In this document: one piece after another, positions 8,927 to 29,154 of the stretch
Numbering within the stretch: position 1 is the stretch's first letter
Layout: the number at the start of each line of letters is the position of its first letter
Origin: a virus
Reading direction: 5' to 3' (one strand)
DNA length: 36,410 bases
IMG/VR virus record: IMGVR_UViG_3300009009_000026
Span: 1 to 36,410 of that record
Notes under the pieces: generated by a model
Database searches by the model: none
The model's input: only the letters and a program-made list of their open reading frames with translations
What the model was told of the DNA's origin: nothing
Translations under genes and position numbers: made by a program

Positions 8927-9805
8927 ATGAATAAACTTGTTATCGTGACCGGTGCTACCGGCACTCTTGGTTCCCGAATCATGCAATACCACCTTGATAA
9001 CAATGATACGGTCATTGGGTTGTCGAGGTGTGACCACAAGATTGCACAGTTCAGCAAGAAATTCCCTGATGTCCATTGGTGCCTGGGTGATATCCGAAAC
9101 GATCTGCACAGCGTACTACCCAACAAGGCGCATATCGTGTATCACTGTGCGGCATTAAAGCATGTTGATATGGGAGAAAACTATCCACAGCAATATCATG
9201 ATGTGAACTACTCAGGAGCAATGAACGTATTCCATCATATCGATTGCGGTAAATTCGTGTTTTTCAGCACTGACAAGGCGGTTCTACCGATCAACTTCTA
9301 TGGCATGGCCAAGGCTCTTGCAGAAAAGCACCTGATAGCGATCAGAAAGGCTACAGGACGCAACATAAAGGTGTTCAGATGGGGTAACATTGTAGGGAGC
9401 CAGGGATCGGTTATCCACACGTTTATCCGGCAGCTGCTGTCACCGGATAGGACCGTTAAGATCACACATCCCGACATGACAAGGTTCTGGCTCAAGATAG
9501 AGGATGCTGTGCAGTTTGCAACAATGGACAGCCATGGTGTTGATGAGGTGCTCATTCACCCACTTATTAAGGCCGCCAAGATCACCGATTTTGTGGAGGC
9601 TATTGCTACTTGTCTGGCACTTCCCAACATGGAGGATTCCTACAAGATCGAATATACCGGGATCAGGCCGGGTGAAAAGATCCATGAGCATCTGCGATCG
9701 GAGCATGATTTTTGTATTCGCAGCGACACAGCAGCACAGTACACCAAATCAGAACTGATTGGCCTTGTCGGACCTACCGTTTCAAAATATCTTGCTGGAG
9801 AATGA
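8927..9805 (+). CDS. PseB/CapD-type UDP-N-acetylhexosamine 4,6-dehydratase (extended SDR)
   Basis: The gene encodes 292 residues of the extended short-chain dehydrogenase family. The Rossmann motif GATGTLG is at residues 9-15, STDKAV at 114-119 and the YxxxK pair at Tyr125/Lys129. Then come FRWGNIVGSQGSVI, THPDMTRFW and GIRPGEKIHE, the signature blocks of PseB, FlaA1 and CapD enzymes. These oxidise, dehydrate and (in PseB) C5-epimerise UDP-GlcNAc, the first step to pseudaminic acid. It is about 40 residues shorter than typical PseB. It leads a + strand cassette with a cytidylyltransferase, an aminotransferase and an acetyltransferase. Whether it is inverting or retaining cannot be told by eye. 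Confidence 0.8.
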   Translation: MNKLVIVTGATGTLGSRIMQYHLDNNDTVIGLSRCDHKIAQFSKKFPDVHWCLGDIRNDLHSVLPNKAHIVYHCAALKHVDMGENYPQQYHDVNYSGAMNVFHHIDCGKFVFFSTDKAVLPINFYGMAKALAEKHLIAIRKATGRNIKVFRWGNIVGSQGSVIHTFIRQLLSPDRTVKITHPDMTRFWLKIEDAVQFATMDSHGVDEVLIHPLIKAAKITDFVEAIATCLALPNMEDSYKIEYTGIRPGEKIHEHLRSEHDFCIRSDTAAQYTKSELIGLVGPTVSKYLAGE

Positions 9806-10130: not shown

Positions 10131-10861
10131 AGAAACTAAACAAACGTGTTGCCATTGCCATACAGTGTAGGCTGGCTTCATCGCGGTTCCCCAAGAAATC
10201 GATTGCTCCTCTGTCGAGCACAGGGATCAGCTGCATAACGTCACTTATAAAGAACTGCACCGTATGTGCAGATCATGTGGAAAACAAACATGATCCAAAC
10301 ATAGATGTCCAGTGTGACGTTTGGGTTCTAGTTCCCGACAATGAACTGGAGTTCTGGAATGAGTTTCTTGCTCACAAGCATGTCAAGGTGCTTGGAGGAT
10401 CCCCGACTAATGTGTTGTCGAGATACATTGATTTATGCCAGTACAAATATGACTACATCATGAGGCTGACAGCCGACTGTCCAAACGTGCCGAATCTGGC
10501 TATGAATAAAGCGATCTGGACCGCTATTTATCACGATCTGGACTACTGCTCAAATGTTTGGGAAAAATACCGCACATCAATCGATGGTCATGACATCGAG
10601 GTGATGTCGTTTGCTGCTCTGCAATGGTTATCAGCCAATGCCGAGACGATAGCGCACAAGGAGCATGTGACTATTGCAATCCGTGAAATGATGCCAAAGG
10701 CACTCAAAAAAGGGTGTCTCGTGACAAAGGAGGATTTGTCGCATATTAAACTGTGTGTTGACACACAGGAAGAACATTCAGCGGCATTCCAGCGTTTTGA
10801 AGCGGCATATCAAAAGCGCAAGGGAGCTATGGAGGCAGGTTTGTATGTACACGAATACTAA
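10127..10861 (+). CDS. SpsF-like cytidylyltransferase (CMP-sugar synthetase family)
   Basis: The gene encodes 244 residues. The N-terminal nucleotide-binding block RLASSRFPKK (15-24) corresponds to the RxxSxRxPxK loop of CMP-nonulosonate/CMP-Kdo synthetases and SpsF. RLTADCP (113-119) carries the metal-binding Asp117, and HDIEVMSF, KEHVTIAI and LCVDTQEE follow in the SpsF order. In this family the enzyme activates a sugar acid with CTP. Here the likely substrate is a nonulosonic acid, given the neighbouring PseB-like and distant NeuB-like genes. The start overlaps the previous stop (ATGA). SpsF proteins are less well characterised than PseF/NeuA, so substrate is inference. Confidence 0.75.
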   Translation: MKKLNKRVAIAIQCRLASSRFPKKSIAPLSSTGISCITSLIKNCTVCADHVENKHDPNIDVQCDVWVLVPDNELEFWNEFLAHKHVKVLGGSPTNVLSRYIDLCQYKYDYIMRLTADCPNVPNLAMNKAIWTAIYHDLDYCSNVWEKYRTSIDGHDIEVMSFAALQWLSANAETIAHKEHVTIAIREMMPKALKKGCLVTKEDLSHIKLCVDTQEEHSAAFQRFEAAYQKRKGAMEAGLYVHEY

Positions 10862-12059
10862 GATGTGGGATGATCGCGCCAAACTGTGCATTGCGCAGGG
10901 AGCACTAACCAACAGCAAACGTCCAGACACAGATGTTATGGGTGTCTTTCCTACTCATTTTGAGAGCGGCTATGGACCATATCTTTATACTGATAAGCGT
11001 GATCGTTATCTTGATTTTGTTTCTGGCCTTGGTGCCATAAACCTTGGCTATGGCAACGAGCAGTTGGAAAACGAGGTTGCCAAAGCGGCAAAGGGTGGAT
11101 GCCTGTCGGGTAGCACTATTCAAGAGATCATTACAGCAGAGAAAATCAAATCCACTTTTCACTGGGTAGATCGCGTCAAGTTTGTCAATGACGGTACGGA
11201 AGCCTGTATGGCAGCTATTCGCATGGCTCGCGCCTTTAACGGAAAAAATATTGTGCTGTGGGAGGGATATCACGGCTGGTATGATGAAGCGACAGCATTG
11301 AATGACAATGCCAAAGGCACACCATGTGGTCATAAGATAATAAATTTGAATGCTGTGAACTTGGATAGTGATTTAAAAAATGTATCTGCTATTATCCTTG
11401 AGCCAGTCATGCTCGATGATAGTCGAGAACGTATCGAATATTTAAAAAAGATTCGTTCAATATCTGATGGGACAGATATCGTTCTGATTTTCGACGAGGT
11501 TGTGACTGGCATGCGCTATCCCTCTCTTTCTGTCTCCAAACACTGGGGAATCTATCCTGACTTGTTATGCCTCGGTAAAGCCTGTGCCAATGGGTACAAA
11601 ATAGGCGCGGTAGCAGGTCGTTCGGATATTATGGACGGTGACTACTTTGTGTCAGGAACATACTTCGGACATATCCCTACGCTGAAGGCGACAGAGGCCT
11701 GTCTGCATCTGACCAAGCATGACAACAAATATGATGCCAAGGATTTGAACGAGAAGGCTTTGGATTTTAAGGAACGGTTCAACGGACTATCACCCTACAC
11801 TGTAAAGCTTGAAGGATGGGGAGCCAGGATGAACTGGGTTGGCTCGGATCTCAACCTTGCTCTTTTCAGGCAAACACTCATCGAGAACCGGATTTTCACG
11901 AAGAATACATTTTTCCTCAACCATGCGACAAAGCATCATATTGATGAATTGTTTTCAGTTTGCCAGTATGCGATAAAACATATCAATTCTGGATCAGCAG
12001 TTATGAAGGGACCAATGCCACGCAAGCCTGTGGCACAAATAGCAAGGGAGCGGCAATGA
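10845..12059 (+). CDS. Class III PLP-dependent aminotransferase (glutamate-1-semialdehyde aminomutase-like)
   Basis: The gene encodes 404 residues. The frame is open from 10755, but the ATG at 10845 follows GGAGG at 10831-10835, so I place the start there, overlapping the previous gene by 17 bp. Family blocks in order are NDGTEACMAAIRMAR, the aromatic PLP-stacking WEGYHGWYDE, IFDEVVTGMR with Asp217, the Schiff-base Lys245 in CLGKACANG, and GTYFGHIPTLKA. Such enzymes transfer an amino group to a carbonyl. In the PseB context it could aminate the 4-keto sugar, a role normally taken by a DegT-type PseC. Alternatively it aminates another position or substrate. Confidence 0.8.
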   Translation: MYTNTKMWDDRAKLCIAQGALTNSKRPDTDVMGVFPTHFESGYGPYLYTDKRDRYLDFVSGLGAINLGYGNEQLENEVAKAAKGGCLSGSTIQEIITAEKIKSTFHWVDRVKFVNDGTEACMAAIRMARAFNGKNIVLWEGYHGWYDEATALNDNAKGTPCGHKIINLNAVNLDSDLKNVSAIILEPVMLDDSRERIEYLKKIRSISDGTDIVLIFDEVVTGMRYPSLSVSKHWGIYPDLLCLGKACANGYKIGAVAGRSDIMDGDYFVSGTYFGHIPTLKATEACLHLTKHDNKYDAKDLNEKALDFKERFNGLSPYTVKLEGWGARMNWVGSDLNLALFRQTLIENRIFTKNTFFLNHATKHHIDELFSVCQYAIKHINSGSAVMKGPMPRKPVAQIARERQ

Positions 12060-21003: not shown

Positions 21004-21666
21004 ATGGCAAAACAAAGAGACATCACCGGACAAAAATTCAATAGATTAACCGCAATAGAATTTAGCCACATAAAAAATAAAAGATATTATTATTGGTTGT
21101 TCAAGTGCGATTGTGGAAAAACATTATTAATGCAAAAAGCTCACGTTTTGAGTGGAAATTCAAAATCATGTGGTTGTTTGAACTTAGAATTGATCGCGCA
21201 AAGACCTATAACTCATGGACACACCAAAAACAAAAAATTTAGTGGATCTTATCGTGCTTGGCGAGCAATGAAAGATAGGTGCGCTAGACAGAAAGAATAT
21301 GAAAATATTGAAATCTGTAATGAATGGTTAAAATTTGAAGTTTTTTTTAATGATATGGGTGATAGGCCAAAAGGAAAAACTTTGGATAGGATAGATAACT
21401 CAAAGGGATATGAAAAAGATAATTGCAGGTGGGCAAATAGACAAGAACAAATAAGAAACACCGGATATAGGGTTAGAAAAACAGGGATTAAATTTAAAGG
21501 TGTTACAAAAACAAACTGTAATCGGTTTAGGGCAAGAATTGGCATTGACTACAAACGTATTGAACTAGGTTGTTTTGAAACCGAACTAGAGGCCGCAAAA
21601 GCCTACAATGAAGCCGCTAAAAAATACTTTGGCGCATTCGCACAATTAAATAAATTAAATCCATAG
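21004..21666 (+). CDS. HNH homing endonuclease with AP2-type DNA-binding domain
   Basis: The gene encodes 220 residues. The N-terminal 60 residues contain CDCGK and CGCLN, a zinc-finger-like region. A central HNH nuclease domain follows (LDRIDNSKGYEKDNCRWA, about 128-145, with an NRQEQIRNT helix). The C-terminal AP2 domain is KFKGVTKT...FRARIG...LGCFETELEAAKAYNEAA. This is the usual layout of free-standing phage homing endonucleases. The gene is AT-rich compared with its neighbours and sits alone between the metallopeptidase and SNase-like genes. No intron halves are obvious on either side. Confidence 0.85.
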   Translation: MAKQRDITGQKFNRLTAIEFSHIKNKRYYYWLFKCDCGKTLLMQKAHVLSGNSKSCGCLNLELIAQRPITHGHTKNKKFSGSYRAWRAMKDRCARQKEYENIEICNEWLKFEVFFNDMGDRPKGKTLDRIDNSKGYEKDNCRWANRQEQIRNTGYRVRKTGIKFKGVTKTNCNRFRARIGIDYKRIELGCFETELEAAKAYNEAAKKYFGAFAQLNKLNP

Positions 21667-26129: not shown

Positions 26130-26876
26130 ATGAGGATAATAGCAGACCTTTCTGTCAATTTTCAAGGGCTAGATGATATTCTTGACACGATCAAGGCGGT
26201 TCAAGCCGACTATATCAAACTGCAATGGTATTCGGAAAAGGATCTGTACGGCACTGGATCCGAGGCAACAAAACTGGATCCCGAATGGCTCCCACAGATC
26301 CAGCATGCTTGCAATGCGTCCAACAAAAGATTGCTTTGCACGGTGTTTGATCCTGATAAGGTCCGAATCATCGACAAATATGTGTTTATCCACAAGGTAG
26401 CATCCAGTGAGATCACCGACAGGGAGCTATTGAAACAGATTGCACTGTGTCGCAAGCAGGTGATCGTGTCAACCGGAGGAGCCACTAGGGAGCAGATGAT
26501 GACAGCCAAAGCCATACTTCATGGCCTCCAGGTTGTCTGGCTCGCATGTGATGTGGAATACCCGGCCAAGCGGCACAATATCCGCAAGATGCTGCAACTC
26601 AAAAACTGGTTTCCAACAGATGGGATCGGCTATTCAGATCACAGCCTCGACATCGAATCCTTTCCGATCATCTGTGCGCATTACAACGTTGGGTTCTATG
26701 AGAAACATGTCAAACCTACGCTGGATCATCCCAGTTATGAAAAGCATGCTCTGACCGTGACTGAGTTCAACGAGATGTTCGATGCCATGGCTGGCAAGGC
26801 TCCCAAGTTTGTCCGAAACCCACACCAGAGGGTTCTCGACAAGGTTCTGAACAAGTGGGTGCGACCGCGTGTCTGA
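26130..26876 (+). CDS. NeuB/PseI-like nonulosonic acid synthase, minimal form
   Basis: The gene encodes 248 residues. Family motifs in order are KLQ (30-32), KVASSEITDRELL (89-101), STGGAT (114-119), ECD-like LACDVEYP, GYSDH (167-171) and EKH (191-193). His171 and His193 match the metal-binding residues of NeuB, which condenses PEP with an aminosugar to form a nine-carbon acid. It is about 100 residues shorter than NeuB/PseI and lacks the C-terminal antifreeze-like SAF domain that contributes to the active site. It is 14 kb from the other sugar genes and overlaps the terminase start by 8 bp. Confidence 0.82.
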   Translation: MRIIADLSVNFQGLDDILDTIKAVQADYIKLQWYSEKDLYGTGSEATKLDPEWLPQIQHACNASNKRLLCTVFDPDKVRIIDKYVFIHKVASSEITDRELLKQIALCRKQVIVSTGGATREQMMTAKAILHGLQVVWLACDVEYPAKRHNIRKMLQLKNWFPTDGIGYSDHSLDIESFPIICAHYNVGFYEKHVKPTLDHPSYEKHALTVTEFNEMFDAMAGKAPKFVRNPHQRVLDKVLNKWVRPRV

Positions 26877-29154
26877 ATTCACCTTTGAACCACATAGCGA
26901 TAAACAGAATAATGCAATTTTTAGTACGAAAAAAATAACAATTGCAGCTACTGGCGTGCAATATGGCAAAACGACGCTGGGTGTAATTCGTTTAAAAATA
27001 GCTATGCACGAATTCATTCATCCAACAGACAATTTTATTGTTACCAGTCCAACTTACAAGATCTTATATCAATCTACTATTCCACCCTTTCTATATTGGA
27101 ATAAAGGAATAGGCACCTATGACAAAAAAAATGAGTGTTTCCATATCAAAGGTGGTGGAAAGGTTTGGTTTAGAACCGGAACAGATGCCGATAGTGTGGT
27201 TGGTCTCACAAATGTCAGACATATTTTGTGTGATGAGGCTGGTTTATACTCTCTCTATTTTTGGGAGAATATACAAGCCAGATCATCTTTTCGAGAAGCA
27301 CCAATAACTATTGTTACCTCACCATATTCTCTAAATTGGTTATATAGAGATTACATCAGAAAATATCGAGCAGGAGATCCATATACACTAGAAAATGTCC
27401 ACTTGTGCCAAGCAAAAAGCAGCGAGAACCCTTACTTTCCTTTAGCCGAATATGAAAATAAGCGCAGGACGATGGAACCTCGTCGGTTCAACATGATGTA
27501 TGGAGGGAACTTTGATAAAGCTCAAGGGCTTGTGTACAGTTGCTTTGACAGCAGCAAACATTGGATCGATCCTATACGCTTACCAGAGGGAACCCGATAT
27601 CTGGCTGGCGTGGACTGGGGATATACTCACCCTTTTGTTATTGTTGTCCGTGCTATTACTCCTCTTGGTATGCATTATCAAGTTGCTGAATTTTATGCTA
27701 CGCAGCTGATGATTGGCGACAAGATCGATGCTGCTCATAGGCTCAAGGCTCAATGGCCGATTGAGAAGTTTATCGCTGATAGCGCCAATCCCGACGACAT
27801 AGCCGAGTTCAACCGGGCAGGACTGAGGTGCGTACCTGCGAATAAAGACATCAAAAAGGGTATTGAGGCACACTGGGATCTTATAAATTCTGGACTACAT
27901 CAAGTGTTCAAGGGTGACAACTTTCACACCATCGATGAATATGAAACATACCATTATCCTGAAGCAAAAGACCTAAGACCAGATCAAGATGAATCTGAAA
28001 AATCAGACCTCCCAGTTGATAAATCCAATCATTGCATAGCAGAAAGCACACCAATATTTACTGATAAAGGGTTGGTTCCTATTGAAAGAATAAAAATAGG
28101 TGACTATGTAAAGACAAGAAATGGATTTAACAGAGTATTAAATGCATGGTGTGCCTCTGAAAGTGGTCAAATACTTATTTTAAAAACAAAAACGGGTAAA
28201 CAATTGCAATGCACACCAGATCACAAAATCTGGACAAAAAGAGGATTTGTCAAAGCCATTCAACTTCGATATGATGATATACTCATTAGCATCGGAGAAA
28301 AGAAATGGAAGCAATTGAATGGAATGGGATGCGTTTCAGACGATACCCAAATAGCAAAAGACTATCGGAACAGCGATATTTCAAAAGAATATCGAAAGGA
28401 AGATCCCAATATTTGCACAGAGAAATATGGGAATTCCATTTTGGGGATATTCCAAAAGGATTTCATATCCACCATATTGACGGTGATACTGCAAATAATG
28501 ATATTGAAAATCTTGAGTGTATTAGTCCTTCAGACCATGCCAAAAAGCATCCAGGCGACATTGAAAAGAAGAAAGCAAATTTATCTAAGATCAATCATCT
28601 TGCAAAAGCGTGGCATAGCAGCAAAGAAGGAGTTGAATTACATATCAAGCTCGGCAGGCTCACATCAAGCAGGAAAGTATCAATCAAAAAGAAGTGTATT
28701 GAATGCAATAACGAGTTCGATACAAATAGAATCGATCAAACAGATAAGTTTTGCTCAAATGCTTGTAAATCGATGTATCGAAGGAAAAGCGGCATCGACG
28801 ATATTGAAGCCGTTTGTGAGTTTTGCAAGGCAGATTTTATCAAAAACAAATATAGCAAGATCAGATGTTGTTCAGGATTTTGTACAAGAAATCTATTTAA
28901 CGCAAAAAAGAACGCGTGTTTATGATTTGACTGTAGAAAATGAGCATGAGTTCTTTGCCGATGGTATCCTAGTTTCAAATTGCCTCGATGCTGCGCGCTA
29001 TGTAACAATTTCAACATATACAACTAGCAAAAAACCGAATAAAATAATAACATCAGACAATCAAAATATTATCCCTTCGCGGGTATCGTCAGATTATGAT
29101 CTTAAGCGTGACAAATTACTGAAGAAAAAACGCTTTGATGGTCATGTTTTGTAG
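26869..29154 (+). CDS. Large terminase subunit (TerL) interrupted by an intein
   Basis: The precursor has 761 residues from a GTG start. The ATPase has a Walker A-type GVQYGKTT (29-36), Walker B ILCDEA with Asp122-Glu123 and coupling motif VTSPYS. The RNase H-like nuclease has Asp249 in AGVDWGYTH, Asp304 in IADSANPDD and the third Asp in CLDAARY. The reading frame between NH and CLDAARY holds a 316-residue intein (residues 389-704). After splicing, TerL would be 445 residues, a normal size. TerL translocates DNA into the capsid and cuts it. Without splicing the nuclease centre would be broken. Confidence 0.9.
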   Translation: MSEFTFEPHSDKQNNAIFSTKKITIAATGVQYGKTTLGVIRLKIAMHEFIHPTDNFIVTSPTYKILYQSTIPPFLYWNKGIGTYDKKNECFHIKGGGKVWFRTGTDADSVVGLTNVRHILCDEAGLYSLYFWENIQARSSFREAPITIVTSPYSLNWLYRDYIRKYRAGDPYTLENVHLCQAKSSENPYFPLAEYENKRRTMEPRRFNMMYGGNFDKAQGLVYSCFDSSKHWIDPIRLPEGTRYLAGVDWGYTHPFVIVVRAITPLGMHYQVAEFYATQLMIGDKIDAAHRLKAQWPIEKFIADSANPDDIAEFNRAGLRCVPANKDIKKGIEAHWDLINSGLHQVFKGDNFHTIDEYETYHYPEAKDLRPDQDESEKSDLPVDKSNHCIAESTPIFTDKGLVPIERIKIGDYVKTRNGFNRVLNAWCASESGQILILKTKTGKQLQCTPDHKIWTKRGFVKAIQLRYDDILISIGEKKWKQLNGMGCVSDDTQIAKDYRNSDISKEYRKEDPNICTEKYGNSILGIFQKDFISTILTVILQIMILKILSVLVLQTMPKSIQATLKRRKQIYLRSIILQKRGIAAKKELNYISSSAGSHQAGKYQSKRSVLNAITSSIQIESIKQISFAQMLVNRCIEGKAASTILKPFVSFARQILSKTNIARSDVVQDFVQEIYLTQKRTRVYDLTVENEHEFFADGILVSNCLDAARYVTISTYTTSKKPNKIITSDNQNIIPSRVSSDYDLKRDKLLKKKRFDGHVL
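28033..28980 (+). mobile_element. Intein in TerL nuclease motif III
   Basis: The intein runs from Cys (codon 28033-28035) to Asn (28978-28980), 316 residues, followed by Cys as the +1 residue. Block A is CIAESTPIFTDKGLVPIE with GDYVKTRNG; block B is CTPDHKIW (TxxH); block F is RVYDLTVENEHEFFADG; block G ends ILVSN. The usual penultimate His is Ser here. Between blocks B and F, about 210 codons carry no in-frame endonuclease; that DNA encodes an HNH protein in another frame (28305-28925). The insertion point is a highly conserved TerL site. Confidence 0.9.
28305..28925 (+). CDS. HNH homing endonuclease nested out of frame inside the intein
   Basis: The gene encodes 206 residues in the -1 frame relative to TerL. 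ATG 28305 has GGAG seven bases upstream (28294-28297), and a TAG at 28287-28289 closes the frame just before, so it is translated as a separate protein. REIWEFHFGDIPKGFHIHHI (39-58) followed by DGDTANNDIENLECISPSDH is a complete HNH nuclease domain. The C-terminal half has CIECN...CSNACK and CEFCK...CSGFC, two zinc-ribbon-like Cys clusters, probably for DNA binding. Its stop at 28923-28925 coincides with the start of intein block F. Confidence 0.88.
   Translation: MEAIEWNGMRFRRYPNSKRLSEQRYFKRISKGRSQYLHREIWEFHFGDIPKGFHIHHIDGDTANNDIENLECISPSDHAKKHPGDIEKKKANLSKINHLAKAWHSSKEGVELHIKLGRLTSSRKVSIKKKCIECNNEFDTNRIDQTDKFCSNACKSMYRRKSGIDDIEAVCEFCKADFIKNKYSKIRCCSGFCTRNLFNAKKNACL

Follow-up and report, generated by a model that had tools for sequence, protein, structure and literature searches.

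Intein homing endonucleases are taken to be domains fused in frame with the splicing protein. Fractured genes, reportedly described by Dassa et al. in 2009, contain split inteins with a free endonuclease between the two halves. The nearest precedent found in the literature for the locus described below is the ShiLan domain, a non-splicing case in which an HNH endonuclease is encoded at −1 in an uninterrupted methylase ORF and for which no splicing is proposed (PMC11855218). For overlapping frames, the same paper cites a 2025 preprint by Gosselin et al. on actinobacteriophage inteins with non-canonical architecture (PMC11855218). As far as can be judged from this citation, the preprint, whose scope is actinobacteriophages, may cover out-of-frame endonucleases in inteins. 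No description of an out-of-frame endonuclease within an intein was found in the literature searched; that preprint may overlap with the present case.

The window, which is the whole stretch of DNA analysed, is the 36,410-base metagenomic virus record IMGVR_UViG_3300009009_000026, and all features of terL and of the HNH gene within it given below lie on its plus strand. The gene for the large terminase subunit, terL (26,869–29,154; 761 aa, GTG start), is a single open frame that matches the terminase family phrog_2 (9.3e-39) and encodes an intein-containing precursor. The N-extein (26,869–28,032) ends with PVDKSNH, the intein (316 aa, Cys1 to Asn316) occupies 28,033–28,980, and the C-extein (28,981–29,151) starts with CLDAARY of the nuclease motif. 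The intein is detected by Pfam Intein_splicing (2.9e-15), TIGR01445 (6.5e-8), TIGR01443 (1.2e-4) and our own HMMs. Its N-terminal splicing part (~90 residues; 28,033–28,302) contains blocks A and B, with TPDH at 28,213–28,224, and its C-terminal splicing blocks F and G, VYDLTVENEHEFFADGILVSN, are located at 28,918–28,980, where TIGR01443 matches. The first residue is Cys (28,033), the last is Asn (28,978–28,980) and the C-extein begins with Cys (28,981), so that the window contains the sequence features of a class 1 intein (Cys1, TxxH in block B, terminal Asn and Cys/Ser/Thr at +1). NCBIfam NF038162 also matched across the linker; this RtcB-intein lead was dropped, the fetched RtcB-intein loci containing no HNH of the window's family.

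At the endonuclease insertion site of this intein, a complete HNH gene (206 aa, ATG to TGA; 28,305–28,925 including the stop) is present at −1 relative to the intein, not fused in frame with it. Its product matches HNH_3 (PF13392; 1.7e-18) and phrog_15471 (3e-34), has an HNH_3 core with catalytic His/Asn/His and invariant residues, conserves the catalytic and zinc residues, and is modelled by AlphaFold2 with a mean pLDDT of 96. A putative ribosome-binding site, GGAG (28,294–28,297, within CGGAGAAAAGAAATG), precedes the gene, with an SD energy of −6.6 upstream of the start. The ORF list and the profile matches bear out the original prediction that the TerL intein contains a full HNH protein at −1 with its own GGAG and ATG; the stop codon, which had been placed exactly where block F starts, is in fact positioned just inside block F. 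The intein linker (28,303–28,917) corresponds to the HNH gene translated with a shift of one base. It had been described as hydrophobic, but this is overstated: its mean hydropathy is −0.11 in the window and −0.24 on average over the related nested loci, as compared with −0.23 expected for an HNH gene translated with this shift. The window contains a second HNH endonuclease gene at 21,004–21,663, which belongs to a different family (phrog_374, 6.6e-69). Genes for a NeuB-family synthase (26,130–26,873), a Polysacc_synt_2 sugar dehydratase/epimerase (8,927–9,802) and an aminotransferase (10,755–12,056) are also present, suggesting a nonulosonic-acid pathway in the window's phage.

The window element resembles canonical full-length inteins in its Hint domain, its use of the canonical endonuclease insertion site and the existence of empty alleles, but differs from them in that the endonuclease is a separate out-of-frame gene and the middle of the intein is a passive linker. 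It resembles fractured split inteins in that IntN and IntC flank the endonuclease in the same way and in that gp41-1 is its best solved relative, but the intein is one continuous ORF that overlaps the endonuclease, for which splicing in cis is expected. It shares with the ShiLan domain an HNH at −1 of an uninterrupted host ORF (a phase re-measured here), zinc fingers and a sporadic distribution. However, no intein blocks are found in the ShiLan case, its host gene is another one, and its HNH is distantly related with another domain order; the window has splicing blocks.

The same arrangement is found in four phage records: Acinetobacter phage Highwayman, Tetrasphaera phage TJE1, a human faecal scaffold and a Rhodobacteraceae phage. 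A search with the window HNH alone gave few close relatives. Relatives were then taken from two scans, one of virus contigs with an HNH alignment (the best 80 of at least 570 relatives were used) and one of a single genome for each species, which gave 30. With our own N-intein, C-intein and HNH profiles, at least 83 loci were classed as nested, 8 as fractured, 27 as free and 2 as partial, the virus-contig part being those best 80 of at least 570. The 83 nested loci consist of 69 virus contigs, the four phage records, nine genome contigs and the window; at identity thresholds of 95% and 50% they fall into 77 and 35 clusters, respectively. In all 87 nested hits the HNH is at −1 and the intein frame is open. 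Cys1, TxxH and the terminal Asn ([HS]N, then C or S) are intact in nearly all nested inteins, and the insertion point is always in the region of the TerL nuclease motif D(N)Hx(x)DAxRY, within a few adjacent positions. The dual-frame insertion thus recurs in other phages, as the original prediction proposed to check, in bacterial and archaeal phages and prophages. A further, archaeal example beyond the 83 is present on a Halobacterium sp. GSL-19 plasmid (L141, 1460–3772), where it lies with phage terminase and portal genes, has a quite different linker composition and is annotated only as a Hint-domain protein. Annotated records list just the TerL (or Hint-domain) ORF, and the endonuclease is hidden. 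Two nested elements contain a tandem pair of HNH-like stretches (L065, 1402–2316; L070, 4703–5617). The TerL of the window's nearest relative (L010, 1–3100) is interrupted a second time, at the Walker A motif, by an insertion (GIQWGK|GVHID...VVTHN|TTVG) that resembles a conventional in-frame intein, so that a single TerL may carry both intein designs.

The best explanation, to which a probability of about 0.86 is given, is that one DNA stretch encodes two products, a TerL precursor that splices in cis and has a passive linker, and, separately, an HNH homing endonuclease. The architecture, its conservation, the pattern of selection and the empty sites are observed; splicing, separate translation, cleavage and homing are the parts that we infer. 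Translation of terL would give the precursor, in which a Hint domain (~90 N-terminal and ~36 C-terminal residues) would fold around a passive linker of ~190 residues, and excision of the intein in cis would restore intact TerL. A second initiation on the same mRNA, at the ATG at 28,305 preceded by GGAG, would produce the free 206-aa HNH endonuclease. When a phage with an uninterrupted terL infects the same cell, this enzyme would cut that gene near its nuclease motif, and repair would copy the whole element. Selection would preserve the protein sequence of the HNH, and in the intein frame the absence of stops alone. The separation of splicing from homing suggested in the original prediction is supported by these loci.

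TerL homologues without the insertion, by which the insertion was to be checked, are found. Relatives with 89% (L121) and 78–80% (L122–L126) identity are uninterrupted at the intein site, and L121 reads NHCADANRY across it, in agreement with the extein junction of the window. Highwayman and Acba_21, the latter without an intein, share 99.5% identity in the TerL extein, and among the 40 best matches listed the only interrupted TerL is Highwayman's own. The flanks of the two phages are 99.6% and 99.4% identical, with 8 mismatches within 14 nt at the junction, the trace expected from a short co-conversion. The element is either mobile or recently lost, because near relatives show empty sites; the pattern of presence and absence fits gain by homing and loss alike, loss being possible in principle. 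Terminase-assisting HNH proteins exist, and in 12 of 14 loci a free-standing relative of the HNH directly follows a TerL gene that has no intein. The intein may therefore splice while the HNH is not the homing enzyme for the terL site and has a packaging or other role near the terminase. This possibility is unlikely, because the HNH_3 core is similar to that of the homing enzyme I-HmuI, the only notable solved relative of the HNH model (a weak match, 3.5e-3), and because sporadic presence among near-identical phages suits a selfish element.

The HNH is expected to be made as a free protein. Its start codon is in place in 81 of the 83 nested loci (ATG in 67), and the SD energy upstream of the nested starts has a median of −5.3, as compared with −3.0 in controls (p = 8e-6), although this enrichment is an average and the SD signal is absent in part of the loci. 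That a clear SD is missing there, and that every case is at −1, would also be consistent with programmed −1 ribosomal frameshifting, by which the HNH would be produced as an intein fusion rather than by separate initiation. Slippery heptamers are present, however, in no more than 6 of the 83 overlap windows (0.0044 per site versus 0.0026 in the control, not clearly enriched), and no slippery site is found in the window. Since start codons are almost always present and the SD is enriched, frameshifting is quite improbable, and separate initiation is preferred.

The AlphaFold model of the intein has a pLDDT of 91–98 over residues 1–90 and of 96–98 over the last 36 residues, and mostly below 50 in the linker outside predicted helices, with one helical stretch reaching ~70. 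The predicted fold is a Hint fold, the best Foldseek match being the gp41-1 intein (4.5e-7), which also ranks first in the sequence-profile search. It could be argued that the precursor remains unspliced and that TerL works with the insertion in place, as has been suggested for the ShiLan-bearing methylase, because the penultimate intein residue in the window is Ser instead of His. This is very unlikely, because all catalytic blocks are conserved over widely diverged loci, the Hint fold is predicted with a pLDDT above 90, and the insertion is inside the nuclease motif of TerL. The splicing blocks of the predicted intein are intact in the window, and the splicing residues are conserved across the nested loci, which favours cis splicing of the precursor.

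The two frames are under different selection. When the synonymous codons of the window HNH are shuffled, the intein frame acquires 5.0 stops on average, and 1 shuffle in 400 leaves it without any (P ~0.0025). The single case is therefore moderately unlikely by chance; the earlier estimate of about 2e-5 was based on the wrong null and is too extreme. The intein frame contains no stop from NTA or NTG codons because all 7 NTA codons of the HNH precede C or T, and none of its NTG codons precedes A. Over the nested HNH genes, the intein frame contains 0 stops as compared with 171.2 expected from synonymous shuffling; an open frame is part of the scoring as nested, yet 83 of the 91 loci with both intein halves are open. 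The third frame contains 1497 stops versus 1568.5 expected, and the fractured and free-standing relatives contain 61 versus 59.0 and 61 versus 63.3, respectively. The evidence from the 83-locus comparison that the intein frame is open beyond chance is overwhelming. Substitutions at HNH codon positions 1/2/3 are 722/618/1329 over 16 pairs and 50/39/101 between the window and L010. HNH position 3, where substitutions are most frequent, corresponds to position 2 in the intein frame, which means that the constraint acts on the HNH frame. These counts, which address the proposal to compare substitution rates by frame, give an HNH-frame pattern. The window and L010 are 68% identical in the extein, 64% in IntN, 37% in the linker and 83% in IntC. 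The linker identities of diverged pairs are 0.192, 0.228 and 0.243, and those simulated from the HNH alone are 0.187, 0.222 and 0.236, so that no constraint on the linker sequence beyond stop avoidance is found in this comparison, and the linker is passive, as had been proposed. Its sole invariant residue, Gly194, is probably read out of the HNH Trp-His (W103-H104) codons.

The uniform −1 phase may reflect common descent or an easier opening of that frame; the latter is possible because the +1 frame of the free HNH genes contains about half as many stops as the +2 frame (61 versus 130). The window is a metagenomic record, and in-frame HNH inteins may exist: in an Armatimonadetes contig (L112, 2–3940) the HNH is apparently in frame within an intein-like region, a possible conventional counterpart. 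A sequencing or assembly error, by which two indels (near 28,300 and near 28,925) would have displaced an in-frame HNH, is nevertheless highly improbable, because the 83 loci share the phase and the open frame, because they include independent isolates (Highwayman, TJE1 and LS06-2018-MD07 among them), and because the linker frame is without protein-level constraint. The two-frame design is a stable, widespread form of probably mobile insert, and not a sequencing error. A group I or II intron carrying the HNH gene can practically be dismissed: HNH_3 enzymes are often intron-borne, but the frame is open, intein blocks are present, and no intron RNA is matched in Rfam up to E = 1.

The fractured organization is found in 8 related loci, in which the first ORF stops after IntN and is followed by the HNH and then by an IntC ORF that closes with N|C and the TerL tail. 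In Vibrio phage 1.245.O (L007, 2352–3464) the two halves of the intein that splits TerL lie on either side of an HNH, and the annotation gives a terminase and a 'hedgehog/hint' protein. In the HNH tree, whose bootstrap is not fully settled, free-standing genes are located in 11 separate places, and no fewer than 3 changes on well-supported branches are needed to account for the fractured loci. HNH distances show the same weak correlation with intein distances (rho 0.289) as with TerL extein distances (0.290). Strict co-inheritance of HNH and intein was rejected on this ground, the correlation being no better than that with the extein, and the result suggests some re-pairing of HNH and intein. 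A tentative proposal, which falls slightly short of even odds, is that the nested elements represent an unrecognised, widespread class of mobile inteins whose dual-frame code is conserved. Such elements would have changed repeatedly into free-standing HNH genes next to TerL or into fractured genes, and back, and would thereby offer a plausible route to the origin of gp41-1-type naturally split inteins.

Homing can be tested directly with isolates whose near-identical relatives lack the intein. Because two proteins are encoded by one DNA with the absence of stops as their only shared constraint, the locus is a clean natural experiment in overlapping genes, in which nested copies avoid stops, whereas freed or fractured relatives do not. 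The element also shows in concrete form a state that lies between contiguous and split inteins.
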